This document shows, one piece after another, positions 2,996-33,300 of a stretch of DNA of 64,000 nucleotides (its first letter is position 1; each line of letters opens with the position of its first letter). Origin of the DNA: Siphonodentalium dalli (Eukaryota > Mollusca > Scaphopoda > Gadilida > Siphonodentaliidae); contig CP136069.1 in assembly GCA_032622095.1 (NCBI GenBank), forward strand, positions 163,915,894 through 163,979,893, in the 5' to 3' direction. Under the pieces are notes generated by a model. The model made no database searches, was not told where the DNA came from, and saw only the letters and a list, made by a program, of their open reading frames with translations. A program made the position numbers and the translations under genes.

Positions 2996-3087
2996 AGTCC
3001 ACTTCCCTCATCTGATCATCTCCAGACTTCATATTAATCTTGATATTGATCTTACTAGATGGAAGCTATCAAATGTTTTTGAATTTT

Positions 3088-3625
3088 ATTGGAAAACATA
3101 GCCACCAGTAACCATCTTGGATTTTACCTTTTTATAGATATATATATATATCTTCATGTTGATAATCTAGTATTACTTAGACATTTCAACTTTCCGCATA
3201 CCTAATTGCTCCACATTAATTTATTCCCTTATATGGGTCACTGTTAATCACTCCCAAAAAAATTGCCATGGTGTTGAGTGCTTTGCTTATCGCACACGTG
3301 CCGTATACAAACAATTGCTCTGAATTTCATAATTTGGTAACTTTTACTTCTAAATTATTGGAAAACATAGCCACCAGTAACCATCTTGGATTTTACCTTT
3401 TTATAGATATATATATATATCTTCATGTTGATAATCTAGTATTACTTAGACATTTCAACTTTCCGCATACCTAATTGCTCCACATTAATTTATTCCCTTA
3501 TATGGGTCACTGTTAATCACTCCCAAAAAAATTGCCATGGTGTTGAGTGCTTTGCTTATCGCACACGTGCCGTATACAAACAATTGCTCTGAATTTCATA
3601 ATTTGGTAACTTTTACTTCTAAATT
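3088..3625. repeat. 269-bp near-perfect tandem duplication
   Basis: Two adjacent copies (3088-3356 and 3357-3625) appear almost identical by eye, including an internal (AT)n stretch and GCTTATCGCACACGTGCCG. This indicates a recent duplication or an assembly artefact. Confidence 0.9.
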
Positions 3626-4650
3626 AAACCTACAACCAAGGCCATCCATGCCTTAAGTGAACAAATCTTCTGTTTGAAGATAAATTCTATATTACATTGT
3701 TACAAGAGTTATAGTATATTTGTATTCAAACTATTTGGCAATGACCATCCTGAATTCCACTATTAGAGTGGTATATGCCCATTACCGTTTTGTTAATTTG
3801 ATAAAAGAGGGATAATCCAAAATCATATTTCACACAAATATTATTCAAAATCAGTGTCGCACTAATTCGGTATCACACATATATTTTGTCCAGGAGAATG
3901 ATTAATCATGATGGCACACGAGAACCAACTCAATTTGCATGCAATTAGTTGAAATGTTGTTATGAAGGAGCGATTGAGTCATCATGTTATTGTTATTTAG
4001 ATAGACATATATTAGTAATATTATAATATTATTGAATAACAAAGCTGGCGCAAAAGATTGCACAATGATTTTTGTCGGAAGACTGTTCATTCGCGGCGAT
4101 ATTGTTAAGAGTGACATTTGGCTGTGCACTGGTATGCACCGTCTTCAATTCCCGACGCAAATAAAGGAAATATGAATATGTTATAGTCATATACAACTAT
4201 AATAGTGGAATTCAGGATGTGCCTGACCTGATGACTTTATAACTTAGTCAAAACTACTTTTCGTAGTACAATAACACCTCTCCAAACTGGACTCTCTATA
4301 AACCACATCCCTCTCCACACTGATTCTGAACTGTCCCATCTCGAATTTACTGCGTTCTCATTAAAATTTACCTTTGTTATCCAAATCTCTTCCGAACACA
4401 TGATTTTGAGTCTGCAAGTGCCTGAACACGTGTATTTTGACCTCCGGAAACAGAACGTTCTGGCCTAATAATCAATAGTCTTTTGTTCAGATAATGCTTT
4501 TAGCCCAACAATAATAAGAGGTGCCTGATTAGATATCGCTGTTTGTTTCACACCAAGAAGGCAACAGCAATTTATTAGCCTGGTTTACGAAACCCTCCAA
4601 CTTTTTCCTCAATATTGTAAAGAAATACCTCCATTTATTTTTATAAAAAA
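3626..4650. other. No gene or repeat recognised
   Basis: AT-rich unique-looking sequence. The 75-codon ORF on the minus strand has no recognisable domain and I do not call it. Confidence 0.4.
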
Positions 4651-10429: not shown

Positions 10430-11265
10430 TTTACATTTAATCCTGACATCATACCACCATATATTTTAACCCATTTAATCATGACAGCATACCACCGATG
10501 GTCCACCGTATATTAACCCATCTAATTCTGACAGCATACCAACATATATTATAACCCATTTAATCATGACAGCATGCCACCATATATTAACACATCTAAT
10601 CCTGACAGCATACCAACATATATTTTAACCCATTTAATCATGACAGCATGCCACCGTATATTAACCCATCTAATCCAGACGGCATACCAATGTATATTTT
10701 AACCCATTTAATCATGACAGCATGCCACCGTATATTAACCCATTTAATCATGACAGCATGCCACCATATATTAACCCATTTAATCATGACAGCATGAAAC
10801 CGTATATTAACCCAATTAGTCATGACAGCATGCCACCGTATATTAACTCATTTAATACTGACAGCATGCCACCGTATATTAACCCATTTAATCATGCCAC
10901 CATATATTAACCCATTTAATCATGACAGCATGCCACCGTATATTAACCCATTTAATCATGCCACCATATATTAACCCATTTAATCCTGACAGCATACCAC
11001 CGTATATTAACCCATTTAATCATGACAACATACCACCATATATTAACCCATTTAATCCTGACAGCATACCACCGTATATTAACCCATTTAATCATGCCAC
11101 CATATATTAACCCATTTAATCATGACAGCATGCCACCGTATATTAACCCATTTAATCATGACAACATACCACCATATATTAACCCATTTAATCCTGACAG
11201 CATACCACCGTATATTTTAACCCATTTAATCATGACAGCATACCACCATATATTATTAAGCCATA
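10430..11265. repeat. Minisatellite, ~37-bp unit
   Basis: Tandem units of the form CATGACAGCATACCACCGTA followed by TATTAACCCATTTAAT, with unit variants (CATGCC... deletions, CCTGACAGC variants). ORFs on both strands repeating NPFNHDS or similar are artefacts of the repeat. Confidence 0.95.
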
Positions 11266-11337: not shown

Positions 11338-12179
11338 TTTAACCCTTTCCATACTGATTAAATAATAATATATAATAAAGTACTCAATCCTTGATTAATT
11401 ATACCAATTTATAATCCATAAAAGAACTGTCTGGGTGGAACTGCTTATATTATTTAAAGGGGTACTGTACACAAAATCCAGCCATTTATGGGACCATCTC
11501 CTTTTACACTCAACATAATAATGCAACAAATTAATGAATTTGAGCCACGGATTAGTGCTAAATACACTCTATGTATGATGTAAACAACATGGTAATTATA
11601 ATTAAAATGAATGTATGACTCCAGCTATTTATTCATTTTGATTATAATTACAATGTTATTTGCATCGTTCATAAAGGACATGAGTGTATTTTGCACTAAT
11701 CCATGGCTCAAATTCATTCATGTATTGCATCTATTCTGTTGAGTATAAAAGGAGATGGTCCCATATATGGCTGGATTTAGTGTACAGTACCCTTATACTA
11801 AATGAACATTGACGAGTAATTCCCTTAGGAAATGTTCAGATAATAAGGTTAAATCTGTCTGTCGTCTGCTTTTATTACCTGAACACCTCATTACTAAATT
11901 GGAGAATCCATGTAGTATAGAAAAGGTTAACCGAAAATTATCACACTTACTGATGAGTAGTTACTTAATTACCATTTATTCATTTACAGTACGGATCTTC
12001 AACTATTAACAAGTTGAACAAACAGCTAGAATATCCTTGTGAATGAATCCTAATCTTAGTGTTTTTATGCCTTTAACTGTCTATTTGATCTGAAAATCCC
12101 TACAAATGAATAGTGGACAGAACCATTGTATACTTTTATAAATGAATGGGAGAATCCATTCAGTAATCAAAGTGTTAAT
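11338..12179. mobile_element. Family M TTAA-type MITE carrying a nested family G MITE
   Basis: Ends near TTTAACCCTTTCCATACTGA and CAGTAATCAAAGTGTTAATT. Internal text 'GACGAGTAATTCCCTTAGGA' and TTCAGATAATAA is shared with 19128-19330 and 44804-45068. The family G element 11454-11796 sits inside. Boundaries are inferred. Confidence 0.5.
11454..11796. mobile_element. Family G palindromic MITE, copy 1
   Basis: Inverted ends AGGGGTACTGTACAC / GTGTACAGTACCC, with long imperfect palindromic arms meeting near 11625. The left flank is TTAA; the right flank is decayed. Homologous to 38111-38462. Confidence 0.75.
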
Positions 12180-12226
12180 TCATTTTCATTGATTTTCATC
12201 GCTCTATTTTCAACTTTTTTCATAAC

Positions 12227-12350
12227 TTAGATATGATATTCTGTCCTTTGAGGAATGGCCCGATGTATTTATGGTATGTTTTTATAACTTCGATATGATA
12301 TCCTCTCCTTTGAGGAATGGCCTGATGTATTTGTGGTATGATCTGTGAAC
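12227..12350 (-). repeat. 62-bp tandem duplication of the ACOX terminal exon
   Basis: Copy A (12289-12350) and copy B (12227-12288) are both 62 bp and differ at about 10 positions. Each is followed by GTTA, so each reads ...AAG TTA stop, that is SKL. Because 62 is not a multiple of 3, copy B is in a different frame from copy A. Copy A's own stop codon (TAA, 12284-12282) is made from the first bases of copy B. Confidence 0.95.
12282..12350 (-). CDS. ACOX1: ACOX exon 14 (residues 647-668), terminal exon with PTS1 SKL
   Basis: The exon follows acceptor TATTTTACAG at 12351 and reads [20 protein letters not shown] then KL-stop, the usual ACOX tail (human ends in VHESYKHLKSLQSKL). SKL is the canonical peroxisomal import signal. 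A second AG eight bases in (exon start 12342) opens a frame of 40 codons through a tandem copy, also ending in SKL at 12220. The nearest downstream AATAAA I see on the minus strand is at about 11975-11980. Confidence 0.93.
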   Translation of the reverse strand, partial: VHRSYHKYIRPFLKGEDIISKL

Positions 12351-15300
12351 CTGTAAAATAAATATAGTGGAATAGAATTCTCCATATATAATTGTTATCA
12401 AACAATCTATTCAGTATCATTAGTCCTAGAATATTTTGTTCCTATCCATCCATTAACCCTTTTGTGACTGGAGCTTCCTGAAATTTTGTGAAAACCCTGT
12501 GCCAATGCATTTTCTTATATATGTGGGTCTACCATAGTGAGCCTCGCATATATAATAGAATACATTGGCCAAACAATATTTACCTTGACCTTGTAAGCCA
12601 GTATTCTCTTATATTTGCAAGGCTCCTTATGGGAGACTCGCATATATAAGAGAATGCGCCCATCATGAAAGGATTAAAATAGTAGGAATGTGACACTCAA
12701 TTTCAGGACAGAATAAAAGGTTGCCGACCATGTGTCCCCCGAAAAGGTGGCTTGTTTGTAAGAATAGCTTTTTTATAAATGTCAAAATTCAGCGGACTGT
12801 CACCAAATTCAAACTTGGCCTCAGTCTTCTTAAATTTGAACCACGTACCAAATATCAAGAGATTCAGTTGATTTAAAAAACAATCAGATAACCATAACTC
12901 CGACAAAAATAAGCAGCCCAAATCCAAATTCAAACTTAAAAAACAATCAGATAACCATAACTCCGGCAAAAATAAACAGACCAAATCCAAATTCAAACTT
13001 AAAAAACAATCAGATAACAAAAACTAACATTATTATCCGGAAACCAAAATAATTGGCAAATTCTAAGTCGACAAGGACCATAACTCTGGCAAAAATGAGC
13101 GGACCGAACCCATATTCGAACTTGACCTGTATATGGAGATGATATCCTCACATACCAAATTTGGTTCAGATCCGATCACTCAAACTAAAAGTTACCATCC
13201 GTAAATCTCAAAACGACAAAATTATTTAGTCGAAAAGGGTCCATAACTCCAGCAAAACTGGGCGGACTGAACCAATATTCCAACTTGACCTGTATTTTGA
13301 GCTCATAAACTCACATACCAAATTTTGTTTCGATCCGATAACCCAAAATAAAGTTATCATCCCGCAATTTTCCGAACAGTTGGGTACTTTCCGATGCACA
13401 GATAGATTCTAAGTCGAAAAGGGCTATAACTCTGGCAAATTGGGTGGACCCAACCCGTATTTAAAACGGACCAGTGTTTTGAGCTGATAAACTCACCTAC
13501 CAAATTTGGTTTCGATCCGATAGCCCAAAATAGAGTTCTCATCCGGAAACTTTCCAAACAGATGGACGCACGGACATATTATAAGTCGAAAAGGGGCCAT
13601 AAATCTGGAAAAATTGACGGACCAAACACATATTCGAACTTGATCTGTGTTTTCAGCAGATAACCTCACATACCAAATTTGGTTTCGATTCCGATAGCCC
13701 AAAATAAAGTTCTCATCTGAAAATTTTCCGAACGGCTATTTTAATAGTCCACCAAATTAACAATAATACCGTTCTGAAGGAGCCTAGTGTGAGATTTGAA
13801 GTACATGTATATAACTACCCTACTGATTTTGAACCCCAAAAAAATTGCATAAAAAGGTCACTTATCAGCATCAAATTGAGTGTTCTATTTGCATGCAATA
13901 TCATGCATATTTTAAATAACATACAAGAATTATTTGGCTATATTTTTACTGAATTAGGCTTGCACGCCTTAATTCAAAGAAATAAACAGGAACCACAACA
14001 AAAGTTTGGTAGATTAGAATTCGAAAAACATTTTTTAGCAAAATATTAAGAAATATGATTGATTATCTTCATTATAGATTATGTTTTGAAAGTCACTCTT
14101 TTCAATTTACAAATATATTATGTAAAGGTCCAAAAGAGTCATGTCCATTTAAACCCAAACAACGGAAACTAAATTAAATTTGCTTGTCAACACACACTAT
14201 CTACAGCTATGAGTAGCATGACCAAGTCCCTCAGTAGTCATCCTTCTAATAGTAGCCAGGATCAGACACACTTACGTGCAACTTATAATGTGCATTGTCA
14301 TTGCCAACGACAGTCACCTAAGTCACGTGACCATGACACATACACGGTCAAGCCGTTCAGAAGTTTTGTATCAATCGTCTAATTTTATGAAATGTGTAGC
14401 GAAGAGGAATAATTCAATCTTTTCAACACTATGCAGGCAGAAATTACCAATAAAACAACAGAGTTGTCTCGCTTTATCTATATCCGACTATTATCTACAA
14501 GTTTCACTATAGACGTTTTCCTACCAAGTGTATCTCCATGGCAATACCATAGTTACACAAGTTCCAAGTTACATGTACGTGTGGCTGATCCTGTACAAGC
14601 CTTGAAATAGTGTGTCTGTCATTTGCAGAATGAGGTCCCCAGAGGGTGAATTTAGTGATGCAACCCTGCATAGCGGGCTAGCATCACCAAATTCACCCTC
14701 TGGGAACCTCATTCTGCTGAGGTGTTAGCAGAATGAGGTCCCCAGAGGGTGACTTTGGTGATGCTAGCCCGCTATGCGGGGTAGCATTACTAAATTCACC
14801 CTCTGGGGACCTCATTCTGCAAATGACAGACACTATTTCAAGGCTTGATCCTGTACTATTACATCAATCAGATGATCTCATGAAAACTAGTCACACTATA
14901 GCAGTGTTGAAACGATTAGGTAATTTCCTAGTTGATTAGTCAGCAGTACAGATGTAGTCCACTAGTCAGCAACCATAGATAGGCAAGCCTTGAAATAGGG
15001 TGTCTGTCATTTGCAGAATGAGGTCCCCAGAGGGTGAATTTAGTGATGCTACCCCACATAGCGGGCTAGCATCACCAAATTCACCCTCTGGTGACCTCAT
15101 TCTGCTTACACTGATGTTCCCAGAGGGTGAATTTGGTGATGCTAGCCCGCTATGCGGGGTAGCATAACTAAATTCACCCTCTGAGGACCTCATTCTGCAA
15201 ATGACAGACACCCTATTTCAAGGCTTGCGTTCAACAGCAAATTTTACAACAGTGGCCATAATTTTTTTTTGCTAATTAGTCGATGTGTAATATTGTAATC

Positions 15301-18300
15301 AATTTTACCCAATATTTGTGTCCATGTCGATTAATTGTATCAACACTTTACTATAGCAAAGCTGCCAAGTCCCATGAAACAATTACATTTGAAACTTACC
15401 GGAGTCTTGTTTAGTGCTGAATCTTTGGCATACTGATACATGGCCTCGTAAACATTCCCATCATATCGGCCAAGTGCGCTGTCGAGTACCTCATCTGGAA
15501 TATCAAATGCGTCCACCGCAGCAACGGCATCAGGACGTATCACAGCCAAGGAATCTAGATACTTATTTTCAAGCATCTCAACCTGAGAAGCATTTAGGAA
15601 GCCATCCTGAAAGGTCAAGGTTCATTAACTCAATCAATGTTACAGGTTTGGACTGAAAAACTTCTAACTTTGACCGTTTAGCACAACAGAGTATAGTGTT
15701 CCATAATGTGTGGCGGAAGATCATGGTCAATAATATAGCGGTTAACAAATTACTTGCTCTAACAATATTATCTCAGCCATTTGTACAAGCCAACCAATGA
15801 ACCGGCTGCAACCATTGCAGGTGCTGCCCTAGTTTGATCAGAACATGTTCTGATACTCATCAGTATGACAAGCTGACTGGTACACGTTTAACGCATGAGT
15901 GGTGCAAAGCTGATAGCCGAAATCACAGTACGAGCGACCTTGCTCAAGGGTCACAACTTGGCATGGGATTTGAAACAGCGAACAATCCAACAATTGCACG
16001 TCACTCAAAGCAGCCGAGCCACTGCTGTGTGACGACTGACAATAGACCAGCGAAGAGCTGCGAACTCGCATCACTGTGTTTATAGCAAATACAAGTCTGA
16101 CACGGTAACCACTGGACCACGGAGCTCACAGTAGATTTACTATAACCTATAAACTCCACACAACACTGGGTGTTCATTGTTACACATAAGTAGCGACTTC
16201 ATTTAATACTGACTATAGTATGGCACGTCCTGTTTTTCACTGACGGCTACATGCAGGCCTGCAGATTTCAAAATAATGCATAACCTATTTTTCGTTTGTC
16301 TGGTTTGTGCTCAGGTAATCCGTAGGTTATACCAGAAGGGTTACATTTGCTATTATCAATACAACTGGTACAATTAACTACTAATGGGTGACCCACAGTG
16401 TTCGCGCTGTTGGTAGCCAAATTAGCCAATGGCTAATCTTTTTCGAATTTGGCTAATAAAAATTTCATTTGGCTAAAATTTTGGCTAAACTTTTGTTGAC
16501 CCCCAAATGGAGACTGGAAGCATGAATTTTTGGCAAGTGGGTTTTCAATTCTGTGATGTGAACGATCTAGTCCGAAAACATCATATACGTAAGTGGGAAT
16601 ATATCGCCGATTGTACAAAGGGAAAACCGATCGCGGACAGTACAAAGGGAAACCCGTCACTCTGCACGAAACAGCAAAAGGTCATATCATTATTTTACAT
16701 TTAATCCGCTAATCCCCCATTGTCTGTCTGGTCACTCACGGGGATCCTGCACAATGCATGTTTATGATGACATTGTATTTATGACGGTCAAGGTTTATGA
16801 GCACCAAGTGTAAGACAATAGCTTAATCAGCCAAATGTGAATCACGACAGATATTTTGTGGCTATTTGTCGCCAATACCGATACATTCAAAATAATATGC
16901 ATGCTATTATGACAGATTGTAATTTGATAATGGCCTAACAATATTAAGTTATTAGTTTCCAGATGTCACTTAGATATTTTCGCAAGGATAATTAATATTT
17001 AATGATTTAAAAAAAGATATTGATATAAAACAACAAAATAATGTCATTAAGAAGGACAATCCCGAATTGCCCCCCCCCCCCCCCCCCCACTCTTTCACAT
17101 AAAGATTAATAATTTTTAATAAATGATATATATAATAATATTTCTAGTTCATCACAATTAGTTAAATTATTGTGTATTTACATGTGCCTCTTAGATTTGA
17201 CGATTTAGTCATTAATTGTGAACCGACCAGAAAACGATGATTTAATTTGGCCATAGTTTTTTTTTAATTTGGCCAAAATAAATTTGGCTAAAGTTGTTTT
17301 CATTTGGCTAATAAAATTGTCATTTGGCTAAACTTTTGGCTAAAGTTTTTTTCGGTCCAGCGCGAACACTGGTGACCCATTGAACTAATGATAATCAATG
17401 TCTCATTTTGGGACTTGATTGAGCAATAATTAAGGTGAGAATTGGTGATCGGGAGACCTACATGTATACAGAAAACTTTGGTGCAACCTAGTTTCCATTT
17501 GCAGCATTTTCATCTGAAAACTAGTAACTCTCTTAAGAAGTTTCTTACAAGCATTTGAAATATTGGTTTTGAACAATGAATTTTTTTTTTCTTTCGTATC
17601 TGGAGCATGTTTTGAAGATTTTGAGAAAAAAATTAAATAAATAGCCTCCCTCCCTCATCTCAAATTGAGATCTAATTGCCTGAGAACATATTTATTTTAT
17701 TTTAATAACCTTATTCTTCTTTGTCAATAGATATACAAAATAAAACAAAAGCTCATAGTTCAGATTTATAAGTGGACAGACAGAACTTCAACATTTTCAG
17801 ATAAACAAAGGATAACTCTAGAAGGAAGAACTTGAATAAAATGTAAATAGACCTTCAATTGAAACTGCTCCTGAAAACCTCCATATTACTTTTCATCCAT
17901 GCCTGACTTATAAGTAACTAACGGCCGATCACGATCAGCAGATGTTTAACCCATCCCTTGGTAATAGTAAATTACTATGACCGGAATCATAAATTATGTA
18001 CTACAATAGACAAATGTACATGATAACACAAATTATTGGAATATATGGGTCACATAGGGAGACTCGCATATATAAGAGAATTCATTGGCACAGGATCTGT
18101 AATGCTGCACCAGCCCAGCCTTGGATTATATGTGAAAAGGTGACCCAGACATGGAATACTTGGGTTAATAGAGTCCTATTAAATTTTACAAAAATGATAA
18201 TGTATCGAATTCTACCAAAAACACATCCATCAAGATAAACCACCTCACTGCTGACCCATTAATATCAATTATATAGCAGAGCTGTCAACTAATCACTGGT

Positions 18301-21300
18301 TTTGTTTATGCTGAACTGTGGAATCTCTATTAAACCTATACAATGTATAATGAACTCAGACCATCTGTAGAGTGATATACTCAGCTGTGCAATGCAGCAA
18401 AGATTTTGTAGTCTACTGTTAATAGCATGTCATGTGTATTATTGAAACATTTAAAAACATTAAGATACCATAGCTTTCATTATCTGCACAAGAGACATCA
18501 GAGACATCAGAAAATGATATAGCCATATTAATAGCTAAGTAGTCCAAAGGCATGGGATGCAATTTGAATTGGATTTAATATCACTCCAAACAAATTTACC
18601 GGTACATAACACAAGATTTTGGACCGATTTAAACCAAATATGGCGTGGCGACTCGGGTACCCTACAAAGTTAGTTTTTTTAATTTTGTTATTAAACTTTA
18701 AAAAAAAATATTTTAATTTAGCAAGAAATTCAATCTAAATTAAATAAAAAAATGTTTTTAATTTTTTTATTATTTTTTTATTGTTGAATTGAGTAAGGAA
18801 TTCAATCTAATATTTTTTAAAGAGTGAATCGATAAATGTCTGGATGGTCGAAAACCTAAACAGACTAAGGGCGGAGCCAATCCAACATATCCCCCAGTTT
18901 ATATTTGCTGGTGCTATAAAACATACCTTCATAAAATCACCTAGGTTTTCCAGTATACCATTTATGCAGTATAAGTGACATAACCTTGTTATTACTCTCA
19001 TGACAGCAGGATCCTCATCTTGCCAACTTTGCAGATTTTTTGCATATGTCTTTACAACAAATGCATGACAATGTGCCTGAAACGATGAATCAGCATATAT
19101 TAATGCTTTCTTTACTAAATACTCCATTGACGAGTAGTTCCCTTAGAAAATATTCAGATAATAAATTAAAATGGACATTTCCATCTAATATATAGGACTC
19201 CTTCTGCCTTTGTATTATCTGCTGTCAGCTTATTTTCCCTGAAAACCCCTCCTGATGATGAATAACATGCCGTTCCAATGGAGAATCAAAATCCAGTATA
19301 GAGAGGGTTGAATATGTATACAGAGTTGAATTAAATATTCCTAATTGGAATGAGAAGTAATAATAATAGATTTATTCTCTGATCCAATTAATAACATGAA
19401 TGGATATTGAGAAAACGAAGTTATAAGCAAAAGATGGACAGAATAACGAAAAGCATTTTATGTACAAAATATACAGTGCTACCTGGAAGAAACAATTTGT
19501 TTGATATAGAATCTTTCTTCATTTATTCATATGATTTTGATATCTAGACAGCAATAATTATTGGGTTAATTTTTCAATGATAATGATATTTTGGTAGCAT
19601 ATGGTCTTCAGATCTTCAGTTCAATGTCCAAATGAGGGACAGAGTTGTCAATAAATGGTGGCAAGAGAGACAGTGAGGCTAGTTATTGGTGTGTGACGTA
19701 ATTAAATGTTAGCAGAAAATATGAACTGGATTTTAATCTGCAATTTTTAACAAAAGACAATTCTCTTAGGTACAAGTTTTCTATCTGATCATTCGCCAAT
19801 CATGAAGTAATGTACATGAGCTGAATTTTGAACTGACAACCGGTAGTATAGGTCGATAAAAATGAGACTTTGTGTGATTTGAATGAGACTGCTATGCATC
19901 CCGCCATGCATTTGATCTTTGTCTTCTCTTTTGTTTACATAACACAGCATATGATCTTGACAATAACATGCTACTTACGCGATATTTATGATTGGTATAA
20001 GAACATAATCTGTCTATATTTTAATATTCTCTGTTTATGGCAGTTTTAATTAATGTGACTAATTTAACAGCAATACCCACCGGGAACGCCATCCGTATCT
20101 TTAAGGTCCTTCCACACGGAGTTTGTTGAGCGATTTGTCAAATTAGAACACACATGAGGCAATGAATGCTGGCAGACGGCATGCGACGCAATCACAAAAT
20201 TTGCAGAAAACGCTGCTGCAGAATTACTTGCTGTCCTAATCTGGCGATGCGGAACCACACACATCATGCATACCGCATGATTCAGAAGTGGTTATTTGCT
20301 AATCCTGATGTTTACAATGACAGTAAAGAACGAGGACATTGGAAGCACAAATTTTCGGTCTAAGTCAGTTTTGGACTGTGATTGGGCATTGCTGCACCAC
20401 ATAGTCATCTTTTATTAACCCTTTACCCAACAGAAGGGCCCTGTGCCAATGCATTATGGTCGACTCGTATATATAAGAGAATGCATTGGCTTAACACATT
20501 AAAAATTATAAAATTGTTAAAGAATGTAAGAAAAAATGGTAAAAAGTGTTAAAAAAAGATTTTTTTTAGGCCAATGCATTCTCTTATATATGCGAGGCGA
20601 CCTATGGTCGACTCGCATATATAAGAGAATGCATTGGCACAGGGCATAACTGTAACTATCACAATGTGGTCAAGGAGCCGGTTCCAATGATATCCATATT
20701 TGTATGGTTCTATTGAGACAGACCAAAGATATTTTAGGCTGTTGAAGCTTTATTTGGCTGGTTTTGGCCGGTTTGTTGGGTAAAGGGTTAAATACACGAC
20801 TAACAAAAACCCCTGTGTTCAACGGAAAACTGTGATTAACTGCAGTAGATGCCCTAAACACTGAAAATGCTAAAGTTGCTTTTGCTGCGCAATATGCACA
20901 CCATGCCACACGATCTTCATGGAAAATGCCATATTGAAGGGCCTTTATAATCTACGAACTAGTCAATGAAAATAGATGACTGGGCCGAAAGTTCTGCTTC
21001 ATTGATCATTGTTACTTTATTAAGGATTTGTTGACTAATTGTAATAATAATTTACCATTGCAGCTTTAACTAACTCTATTGAACACATATTCCATGCAAC
21101 ATGTGGTGCTTTCCCTTGATTTGACAGAATCTTCAACTTCTTAGCAACTGATTTGATTAACCTGAAATCAGAAATGAAGATATGATTGGATATGATGTTA
21201 CACTCATAAAAAGTATTATTTGAGTCTCAGACACTGCCACATTGAAATATATGGCCCGCATTGGATGTTTTATTTCGATTTATGATATTATAACCCAAAT

Positions 21301-27300: not shown

Positions 27301-30300
27301 TACCTCCCTTGAATTAGTAACTCCCTTGAATAGTACCTCCCATAACAATATTTGAACAGCTGAATCATATCTACTATATTGAACGCTTCTTCTTTCATCG
27401 TCATTATTTTACATATATTGAAACATTGAATTCACTCCACCATTTGATTGTGAACTGAGTGATTTATACAGTAATGCTCTAATTAATCGACTTCTTAACC
27501 ACAGCAGAATTATGGCTTGTTGCCATTCATCGGAAAGCTCTCGGTGAGAGCTTTCCGATGAATGGCAACACGCCATATTTCCGACTAAATCCTGAAAAGT
27601 TACCCATAATTTTGCTGTGGTTAAGAAGTCGATTAATTAGAGCATTACTGTAGGTGATGACACAGCCAACTAAGCGAATGTATCTGTGATGCTGGAGAAT
27701 TCTGCGAATCCCATCTGCAATCTTTTATTGGGCTCCATGAGATATAATTCAGAGTTCGGAGTTTGGGATGATACTCAGGAAGATTTGAAAGGGTTGTCAG
27801 CCCTCTCCTACAACCTACTTCAGTTATGCTGCAATGAGCGTATGTAAAGTTTGTGATTTGTGAGTAGATTTCTGTCAGCCTATACACAGTAGGTGTAGGT
27901 GCCTACTGTGTATGGGGTGCCTGCAACCAAAACAAGAAGCAAAGCCCCCCACCCCATTCCTAACCTGGACTGTCGATGATGACTTACCTTGTTTTCTTTT
28001 GTGAGTTATGTGTATGTATCATTATGAATATCATTTTGAGTCATGAAATATTGTAATCTAATGGCATGATTGGGGCTTGTATGGACTCCTGTTGCCTTAG
28101 TCTGTCGCATTCCGGGCTTATACAATGGGCACAACTCTAGGAAGAGGGCCAATGCCATCCAGTTGACTTAACCCTTTACCCAACAGAAGGGCCCTGTTCA
28201 AAGGCATTCTATTATATATGCGAGTCGACCATAGGTCGCCTCGCATATATAAGAGAATGCATTGGCTTAACACATTAAAAATTATAAAATTGTTAAAGAA
28301 TGTAAGAAAAAATGGTAAAAAGTGTTAAAAAAAGATATTTTTTAGGCCAATGCATTCTCTTATATATGCGAGGCGACCTATGGTCGACTCGCATATATAA
28401 GAGAATGCATTGGCACAGGGCATAACTGTAACTATCACAATGTGGTCAAGGAGCCGGTTCCAATGATATCCATATTTGTATGGTTCTATTGAGACAGACC
28501 GAAGATATTTTAGGCTGTTGAAGATTTATTTGGCCGGTTTTGGCCGTTTTGTTTGGTAAAGGGTTAAGGTCAGTCGGGGCTCCGCAATGCTTGATGGTGC
28601 AATACCCACCTTTCACTCCTGTGTTGACCTGGTTGTGTATTTAATTTTATGAGTTTTAATTTGGCAGATCATCACAATTTGCATGGATCTCACATGCTTT
28701 TAACCCTTTCTATACTAAATCAGGACTGAAAATATGGTGCCGAACTTTTGCAGAATGAGGTCCCCAGAGGATGAATTTAGCACAGTGGGCTAGAATCACC
28801 AAATTGATCCTCTGGGAAGTCCAGTGGGGACCTCATGCTGCATGGCCTCATCTGCTATGGGAGACCTAGACACAGATTTAAGTTCCCAGATGCAAGCCTT
28901 GAAATAGGGTGTCTGTCATTTGCAGAATGAGGTCCCCAGAGGGTGAATTTAGTGATGCTACCCCACATAGCGGGCTAGCATCACCAAATTCACCCTCTGG
29001 GGACCTCATTCTGCTTACACCTCATCAGAATGAGGTTCCCAGAGGGTGAATTTGGTGATGCTAGCCCGCATAGCGGGGTAGCATCACTAAACTCACCCTC
29101 TGGGGACCTCACTCTGCAAATGACAGACACCCTATTTCAAGGCTTGCCCAGATGGCACCTCAAATATGCATTGTGAGGTCCCCAGAGAATCAATTTAGCA
29201 CAGTTGGCTGGCATCACCAAATTAATCCTATGGGGACCTCATGCTGCATGGCCTCATCTGCTATGGGAGACCAAGACACAGATTTAAGTCCCCAGATGGC
29301 ACCTCAAATATGCATTGTGTCATCTGCCAATTTGGTGTTATAGAGAAACTGAACTAAAAAAATAGACTAAAATACTTGTTAATTTTATAATAAAGATACG
29401 TTCCAGAGAAGATGAGGTCTAAGCAGAATGTGGTCCCCAGATTGTGAATTTATTGATGCTAGCCTGCTGTGCGGGGTAGCTTCATTAAATTCACCCTCTG
29501 GGGACCTCAGTCTGCTTAGGCCTCATCTTCTGAGAATTATCTATAGTCTCAAATTAACATTATTTTTAGTTACTTTTTCCCTTCTGTGAAGTTTCTATAT
29601 CCCCCAATTTGCAGAAGATAAATGGATAATCAAGGTGACTAATGGGTGAACATTGCCAACTTCTACTGGGGAAATTTAATCTTATCTTAGGTCTACCATA
29701 GCAGTTGATACCTACGTAGAATGAGGTTCCCTGAGAGTGAATTTGGTGATGAAATCCCACCATGTGGGATAGCGTCACTAAATTCACCCTCTGGGGACCT
29801 CATTCTGCAAATGACAGACACACTATTTGCAGGATTGAACCAGTGATAGTAAATGGAGTTATTTATTTATACTCATATCGCTGACTAACCCAGGTGTGGT
29901 TTCTGTCTGCCGTCGTACTGCTGAATATCTTACTGCTATTGTCGACACCTCCTGGACAGCGCGGGCGACCATCATAGTAATATGTGATCTAATCATCACC
30001 ATGGCCCCATACAACAGCTTAGTGTGCACAGGCTTGAAATATGTCCCATCCTCAAGCACCTTCAATGAAAGTATCAATGGCACTGTAGCTCAACTTGGAA
30101 AAGGGGGGGGGGGGTAATTTCACATTTAATGTCAATATTTACAGTCAATGGAGCAATTAAGAATGTGAAAAGTTGAAATGTTTAACCCTTTGAGTGCCAG
30201 GGGCCGATCTCATCGGCCCTAAACCTACAAAATAAGTCTGTTAAAGAATATAAGAATAAATTATTAAAATTGTAAAAAAAAATTGTAAAAAAAATAAAAC

Positions 30301-33300
30301 AAAATAAAACAAAATTGTTAGGCCAATGCATTCTCTTATATATGCGAGGCGACCTATGGTCGACTCGCATATATAAGACAATGCATTGGCACAGGGTATA
30401 TGGGTTGATACAAAAATCGGACCTGGCACTCAAAGGGCTAAGTAATACTAAATTTGGGATTTGCTGGCAATTTTGATACTAAATTTATTGAAATATCTGC
30501 ATTGAGGAAGCTTATTCACTGTGAGCCATAGCATATTATTATTATTATTATTTACATTTAAGAAACGCATTCTACATAATGTTCCAATGCGCTTTACAAG
30601 TAAATACAATAAAAACACATAAAATTATAAAAATACAAACAATAGGCCTACTACTATTAAATACAATTTGGTAAAGATGTAACGAAAATTACTGTAAAAT
30701 TAAAGCTAAAGAAAAGTGAAATTTCAGTAAAAAATTAAAAGTTTGATTTATAAAAAAAAATTAAGATAAAAGAATAAATTATAACTTTAACAACGGTGTG
30801 TATTGAAATAACAACTGCAATAAGATTTCCAAAAATAACGATCTATAAATTGAAACATTTTTTTAAAAGATTGGTTTTCAGTTTTTTCTTAAATTCGGAG
30901 GTTGTTTTTGAACGTCTAATCTTTAACGGTAGTCCATTCCAAATCTGGATAGATGTCTCTTGGAAGCATTTTTCACCATAACGTCCGTCTGGTTTTCTGA
31001 TGTTGGTTAGGTCTAGACCACACGCACTTGAACGGGTAACTCTGTCACACGATTTCAGGATAAACATGTCTGTTATGTATGACGGTACTTGTTTTCTGAG
31101 GGATTTAAAAACGATCACAGCACATTTAAACTGCATCCTGAATTCAAACGTCATTATGTGATTATGAATTAGAACTCGTGTTATGTGGTCAAACTTCGAA
31201 ACGTTCCCAATAAGCCGAGCACAGTTATTCAATAACAGGTTGATTCTTTTAATGTTCCCTTTTGTCAAATTTGTAAGAAGTGAGTTGAGACTGTCCACGC
31301 GCGCTACCACTAAGGTGAGAACAGCATGCTTTATCGCCTTCGGGCTCAAATGACATTTAACTCTCCTTAGGCACCTTAGGTGAAAATAACACGACTTCAA
31401 CAAATTGTTAACTGTCACAGTCATCGACATAGTATTATCAAAATTGGAGCCCAGGTTTCGAATTTCCGAACTTGAGTCAATTATAGAGTCAGCAAGCTGA
31501 AATTGAAATTTGGCGTCTGCTTGTCCATTTACAGTCTCTGACAACACTTTTAACGAATATCGAGATCCTATCACAAGAAATTCTGACTTATGCATAATTG
31601 TGGAGTTTGCCGCATATGAAACACAGATCCCGTGACCAATTCATCAGTATTTTCACGTGGAATGACATGTAAGGATTTTTACATATAATGGTAACTTTGT
31701 TAATTGTAAGTGATTAGGTAACTGACCAAGCAGAGTTCACTCGTTTGGGACATGATTCTTTTGAGAAAACATTACTCACAGACGAGATTGTTTGCAGAAA
31801 TGCTTACTTTTATATAATTTTATAGCAATTTATGTGTTTATTCAATGTTGGGTCAGACCATTTGCCATGGCAGAATTCTCCGTGTGACAACTCATACTAT
31901 ATGGGTGATCATCCATAGTCTATAAATCTTCTAGAAATTTTGGTTAGATACTGTACCACCAAATTGGGACTGGTTGCCATAGCAACCTATTTTCGGAAAT
32001 ATATGGGGGCTGTAATTTTGCTATATGACAATATGTTTGCGACATTTTGAATCAAATATAAATGAATTCCAAAGATAAATGATCCAGGAATATTTTGCCA
32101 ACATCTGGAACTAGCTTTGCTCGAAAATCACCCAACACCGACAGAGGGCGCCATTCAAAATGGCCACCAAAGCCCCGTTTTCTAACGTTAAAATGCTTAC
32201 TTTTATATCATTTTATAGCAATGTGTGCATTAATCTAATGCTGAGTCAGACAATTTGCAAACAGAATTCTCCACGTGACAACTCATAATATATATATGGG
32301 TGATCATCCGTAGTCTATAAATCTTCCAAAAATTTTGGGTAGATACCACCAAATTGCGACCGGTTGACATGGCAACCGATTTTCAGAAAATTATGCATTT
32401 GGGGGCTGTAATTTCGCTATGTGAGATGTCTGCATGCGACATTTTGAATCAAATGTAATTAATTTCCAAAGAAATAGGATCCAGGAATATATTTAAATTG
32501 CCCGGCTTCTTGTTCCTTCCGCTGAAGGGGTCAAGATTCACCTGCCATGGTGATTGCCAAACCGAAAACTTGTCTACTCGTCTATGGCTTAGGCTACGGG
32601 GCGCCGCCATTTTGGAACAATGACATCACATCGGCCTATATTTAATACATGTTACTATGTGCAAAACATTTAAGTATAAAAGAATCATTCGCTGATAACA
32701 AGTGCATGAAGTGGGAAACGGATATATCCATTTCCCGTCCTGTAGATAATGCTTTGGGAAACGGATATATCCGTTTCCCGTCCTAAATGAGTTAAATATA
32801 TTCAACTAGATATCCACCACCCGCCCCCACAATGAATTTGGGTTAGAATTAGGGCAGCTATATATGTTTCAAAAAGGGCAATAACTCTAAGATAAGTCTG
32901 GAAAGTTTCATCCACAGGAATATGGATACCCAGACAGCTATCCCGACAGTTGATTCAAGTCTGAATTTAGTGTGTCTGACATTTGCAGAATGAGGTCGCC
33001 AGAGGGTGAATAAAGTGATGCTATCATGCATAGTGGGCTAGCATCACCAAATTCACCCTCTGAGGACCTCATTCTGCTTAGGCCTCAAGTAAGTTCCCAG
33101 CTGAAGTTCCCCAGTTGAAGTTGGTGATGTTCACTCATTAGTCACCTCGGTTATGCAATTTATCTTCTGCAAATTAGGGGATATAGAAACTTTCAAGAAG
33201 GGAAAAAAGTTACAAAAAACAATGTTAATTTGAAGCTATTGACATTTCCTAGAAGATGAGGCCTTAGCATAATGAGGTCAATGTCGTGCGGGATAGCGTA

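Follow-up and report, generated by a model that had tools for sequence, protein, structure and literature searches.

A 62-bp tandem duplication within the last coding exon of a Siphonodentalium dalli gene of ACOX1 type, most likely old and ordinary, places a second SKL end behind an acceptor-like AG

Where else does the 3' end of a coding sequence, or the signal that it carries, come in more than one version? In the eastern oyster, terminal exon 10 of the AOX gene is tandem-duplicated, the choice between the copies is made by alternative splicing at the 3' end, and mRNAs of both kinds were detected, according to the available part of that paper (PMC5589949). Tandem acceptors 2–12 nt apart are collected in TassDB2, whose Table 1, in the accessible portion of the source, gives 175 of 15,386 human delta-8 pairs as confirmed alternative (1.1%), a figure that describes human transcripts and not the present animal (PMC2878309). 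For the +8 spacing, the available parts of PMC1449888 and PMC2423196, both of which deal with tandem splice sites, give no figure. Peroxisomal signals reached through splicing or readthrough are described for fungi and animals in the accessible portions of PMC4207609 and, for LDHB readthrough, PMC4359377.

How does the present locus, an ACOX1-type gene within a window of 64,000 nucleotides (the whole stretch of DNA analyzed here), compare with these systems? As in oyster AOX, so far as the available account describes it, the last coding exon of an invertebrate oxidase gene is tandem-duplicated; alternative use of the copies is described for the oyster and would be hypothetical here. Whereas all of exon 10 is doubled there, the downstream ACOX copy (copy B) is missing the beginning of the exon together with its acceptor, so that the two copies do not each have an acceptor of their own; copy B would be read behind a frame-shifted upstream copy (copy A). 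The terminal 3' splice site has two AGs eight bases apart, as in the delta-8 class of TassDB2 in the portion seen (PMC2878309). Unlike the usual delta-8 shift, which leads to an unrelated end, the shifted frame here enters a duplicate of the native tail. As in the cryptic PTS1 cases, judged from the accessible portions of those papers, a peroxisomal signal would be reached by a nonstandard route to the 3' end; those cases, however, add a peroxisomal form to enzymes that are also elsewhere in the cell, whereas both ACOX forms would carry SKL. An ACOX isoform with such an arrangement was not among the literature matches listed, most subscription journals lying outside the coverage. The most likely interpretation is that the 62-bp repeat is an ordinary old tandem duplication and that the longer isoform is absent or splicing noise.

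The joined exon translations match rat ACOX (1is2, E 2.6e-189) and human ACOX1 (7q84, E 2.5e-188) over their full length, the query being an approximate exon join from which exon 11 and short stretches are absent and in which a few edge residues are probably intronic. A tblastn search of a 6-kb stretch with the corresponding rat segment placed the absent exon 11 near 21163–21080 (E 0.001), which gives a gene with about 14 coding exons. Exon 13, the preceding coding exon (15400–15606, minus strand, placed by sequence and homology), has the donor ACTCCG/GTAAGT and ends in phase 0; therefore, joins to both terminal acceptors are in frame. The first acceptor AG (12351–12352, minus strand), with the context TTTTACAG/G, sets the exon start at 12350. 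From there the native coding part (12282–12350, minus strand) encodes 22 residues ending in SKL and a stop at 12284–12282, and this protein end aligns without gaps to rat ACOX NKTEVHESYHKHLKP. Thus, splicing at the first acceptor yields the ancestral tail, and the simplest view of copy B is as 3' UTR. SKL is the peroxisomal import signal PTS1, and the native tail is accordingly predicted to end in the C-terminal PTS1 of an ACOX1. The 22 codons running from the acceptor at 12351 to an SKL-stop at 12282 had been proposed in the first-pass annotation; the acceptor, termed annotated there, was its own deduction, the frames agree, and homology to the rat enzyme backs the choice of acceptor.

Is the terminal exon unique in the genome? 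A DNA search of the whole assembly (2.23 Gb; 2,226,750,531 bases in 9 contigs) returned one match, the present locus, and a search of the assembly with the tail, at E up to 10, returned copies A and B and no further copy, allele, or paralogous tail, both searches being of a kind that may pass over masked or very common sequence. There is a second ACOX gene, on C4, and the tail search of the assembly found no copy of the terminal tail there. Two observations concern that gene: a filter on ORF ends across a 9.3-kb stretch downstream of it (L004, G000:C4:115490500-115499800) gave one ORF ending in MSKL, a candidate last exon only, and one PF01756 match (C4:115502643-115502822) has an internal TAG, perhaps an exon edge.

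The repeat itself is an ungapped pair on the minus strand, recovered by both TRF and a repeat finder, in which the end of copy A (12279–12340) directly adjoins copy B (12217–12278). The copies are identical at 56 of 62 bases (90%), with the six differences spread along the unit, and the TRF score of 206 is far beyond chance, so the 62-bp tandem duplication reported in the last ACOX exon is present. Its extent is smaller than the whole coding part first described: the unit begins 10 nt inside the exon and spans 59 of the 69 coding bases, stop counted. The exon's first 10 bases (12350–12341), and both AGs with them, are left unduplicated, so that copy B lacks an acceptor in the corresponding position. 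Nor is the stop codon of copy A built from copy B bases, as had been suggested, because it (12284–12282) falls within copy A. On the same strand, the first AATAAA/ATTAAA match 3' of copy B is the AATAAA at 11975–11980 (a consensus match only), which would place copy B within the 3' UTR.

Tandem arrays are common around this exon. The window contains 20 separate arrays with TRF scores of at least 100 (29 rows), at least seven of them, besides the exon repeat, with 1.8–2.4 copies of a 43–208-bp unit, and three of these resemble foldback elements. Also in this group is a 63-bp array (2.4 copies, 94%) at 12873–13025 in the last ACOX intron, just upstream of the terminal exon. In a window so rich in tandem arrays, the terminal-exon duplication needs no special cause. 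The period of the 12873–13025 array is nearly equal to that of the exon repeat, and its sequence is apparently different. Elsewhere in the window, two identical 269-bp tandem units (3086–3626; TRF 100%) point either to a duplication of very recent date or to an effect of assembly, and a satellite-like 36-bp array of ∼21 copies (10503–11255) lies downstream of the AATAAA matches at 11980–11633. Units of 93–103 bp recur at 14625–14820, 15019–15198, and 28923–29117; their translations are variants of one 17-residue sequence, and their consensus looks like foldback repeats. A 265-residue open frame on the minus strand of an ACOX intron (30846–31640) has a putative resemblance to the terminal part of a non-LTR reverse transcriptase.

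What would splicing at the second AG produce? This acceptor-like AG (12343–12344, minus strand; TTCACAG/A), recognized by its sequence, would set an alternative exon start at 12342. A hypothetical frame (12220–12342, minus strand) then runs for 40 residues, crossing copy A in a frame other than its own before entering copy B in its native one, and ends in TYHKYIGPFLKGQNIISKL and a stop at 12222–12220. The proposal that an AG eight bases downstream keeps exon 13 in frame and opens 40 codons to an SKL-stop at 12220 was correct, as were the arithmetic behind it (62 and 8 both leave a remainder of 2 on division by 3) and the retention of SKL. Readthrough of the copy A stop into the SKL of copy B, also considered, would arrive in the wrong frame (62 mod 3 = 2). 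AGs at +29 (start 12321), +48 (start 12302), and +110 (start 12240, inside copy B) lead to SKL ends as well, so the +8 AG is not unique in this respect; the one within copy B yields NIISKL only. When one unit was deleted in silico, the +8 tail had 37 residues and the +29 tail 30, neither with SKL, and with both units present each of these tails ends in SKL. Because the second unit supplies the SKL, a slip to the +8 or +29 AG would now be expected to retain the import signal.

How unusual is an AG at this position? Among the 11 placed acceptors of the gene (exons 11 and 12 were left out, their edges being unfixed), an AG ends at exactly +8 in four (exons 5, 6, 10, and 14). Of 100,000 versions of the tail recoded synonymously, 40% had an AG at +8 and 59% had one at +5, +8, +11, or +14. 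The +8 site is not weak in itself, partly by way of the T-rich stretch that it shares with the first site. On a small acceptor matrix trained on the gene's 10 other placed acceptors, the first site scores 6.1 and the +8 site 3.84, and five of the 10 training acceptors score lower than the +8 site. When all 2,115 AGs of the gene strand are ranked, the first site comes 8th and the +8 site 40th. In splicing the first AG is normally preferred, and the AG just upstream is what speaks against use of the +8 site.

Do the differences between the copies point to constraint or to drift? In a simple neutral test (50,000 trials for each choice of ancestor), copy B retained its frame and SKL-stop after six random substitutions in 38% of trials with copy A as ancestor and in 34% with copy B. 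A fuller model restricted copy A to synonymous substitutions and let copy B change without constraint; copy B then kept its frame and SKL-stop in 18,321 of 40,000 simulations (46%), and three residue differences, the number observed, were the commonest outcome (6,011 of 18,321). The observed differences are R/G, E/Q, and D/N, in 18 residues; an S/T difference preceding them hinges on a base that the unit does not include. R/G is the sole one that can be polarized (copy A and tomato have R, rat and Caenorhabditis elegans K, and copy B G). The changes in copy B fit neutral drift, and nothing among them calls for selection on it.

The shifted frame through copy A is less readily expected. The +8 frame was open in 7.1% of 100,000 synonymous recodings, and a right-phase AG together with an open frame occurred in 4.4%. 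The full arrangement (an AG within 15 nt, an open shifted frame in copy A, and SKL from copy B) arose in 878 of 40,000 neutral simulations (2.2%); under the same duplication model, the yield was 612 of 40,000 (1.5%) with the AG at exactly +8 and 3,107 of 40,000 (7.8%) with any AG up to +40. All of these recoding and simulation probabilities are post hoc, the pattern having been seen first in a scan of the whole window. At both synonymous sense-codon differences, 12333 and 12291, copy A has the base that keeps the +8 frame open, and the copy B base would close it; the third silent difference, at 12283 (TAA/TGA stop), has no effect on that frame.

We consider it probable that the duplication is old, that splicing at 12350 is the native mode, that copy B drifts in the 3' UTR, and that the +8 AG is a chance by-product. 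A local 62-bp tandem duplication would have struck the terminal exon of the ACOX1-type gene long ago; splicing at 12350 would continue to give the conserved enzyme tail, with its stop in copy A, and leave copy B to neutral drift within the 3' UTR. The CACAG at +8 would be a by-product of His-Arg codons, and should low-level slippage of the spliceosome to it occur at all, the duplication would happen to provide a second SKL end. We infer that use of the +8 site is absent or rare, and unselected.

That the +8 acceptor is instead used, and the 40-residue tail maintained as a second isoform in which copy A serves as a linker, copy B restores PTS1, and both forms are peroxisomal, is improbable, though less so than the remaining alternatives. 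Frames and SKL match exactly, the simulated chance of the arrangement is ∼2%, at both sense-codon sites with a synonymous difference copy A carries the base that leaves the frame open, and the local score of the +8 site is good; the simulations and the bases at 12333 and 12291 lift this isoform from negligible to, perhaps, a slim chance. Set against this are the neutral-looking changes in copy B, an alternative tail that exchanges the conserved VHxSYHK start for unrelated residues, and the advantage normally enjoyed by the first AG. Confirmed human use of +8 pairs, at 1.1% in the accessible portion of the TassDB2 paper, also argues against it (PMC2878309). The first-pass suggestion that the duplication created a longer isoform thus stands insofar as the duplication gave the +8 tail its SKL; that the isoform is produced or matters is unsupported, given an AG at +8 in four of 11 acceptors, the low human use, and the neutral-like copy B. 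We regard as similarly unlikely the proposal that a partial terminal-exon duplication of a length (2 mod 3) suited to the +8 AG works as a frame catcher, such that a slip otherwise costing the enzyme its peroxisomal signal now produces a longer ACOX1 in which PTS1 is duplicated, and that selection at synonymous sites has preserved the open shifted frame of copy A.

More doubtful still is the possibility that slips to +8 are low-level noise and that the second SKL, by keeping the mis-spliced enzyme importable, is under weak selection against a dead cytosolic oxidase. It would account for +8 and +29 tails that lack SKL on one unit and have it on two, but any selection acting on so rare an error would be very weak, and the open frame has a 2% chance explanation. 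An assembly artefact concealing one true copy is very unlikely, as the copies differ at six of 62 bases along the unit, ordinary reads could presumably span 124 bp, and the assembly searches, masked or skipped stretches aside, returned no other locus for misjoining.

On the favored reading of an old duplicate drifting behind natively spliced copy A, in which the longer form is not made, this locus would illustrate well how an old duplicate near a common AG can mimic a designed isoform. If the longer form is made, it would be a clear instance of a small duplication that, in a single step, made a targetable isoform out of splicing noise.
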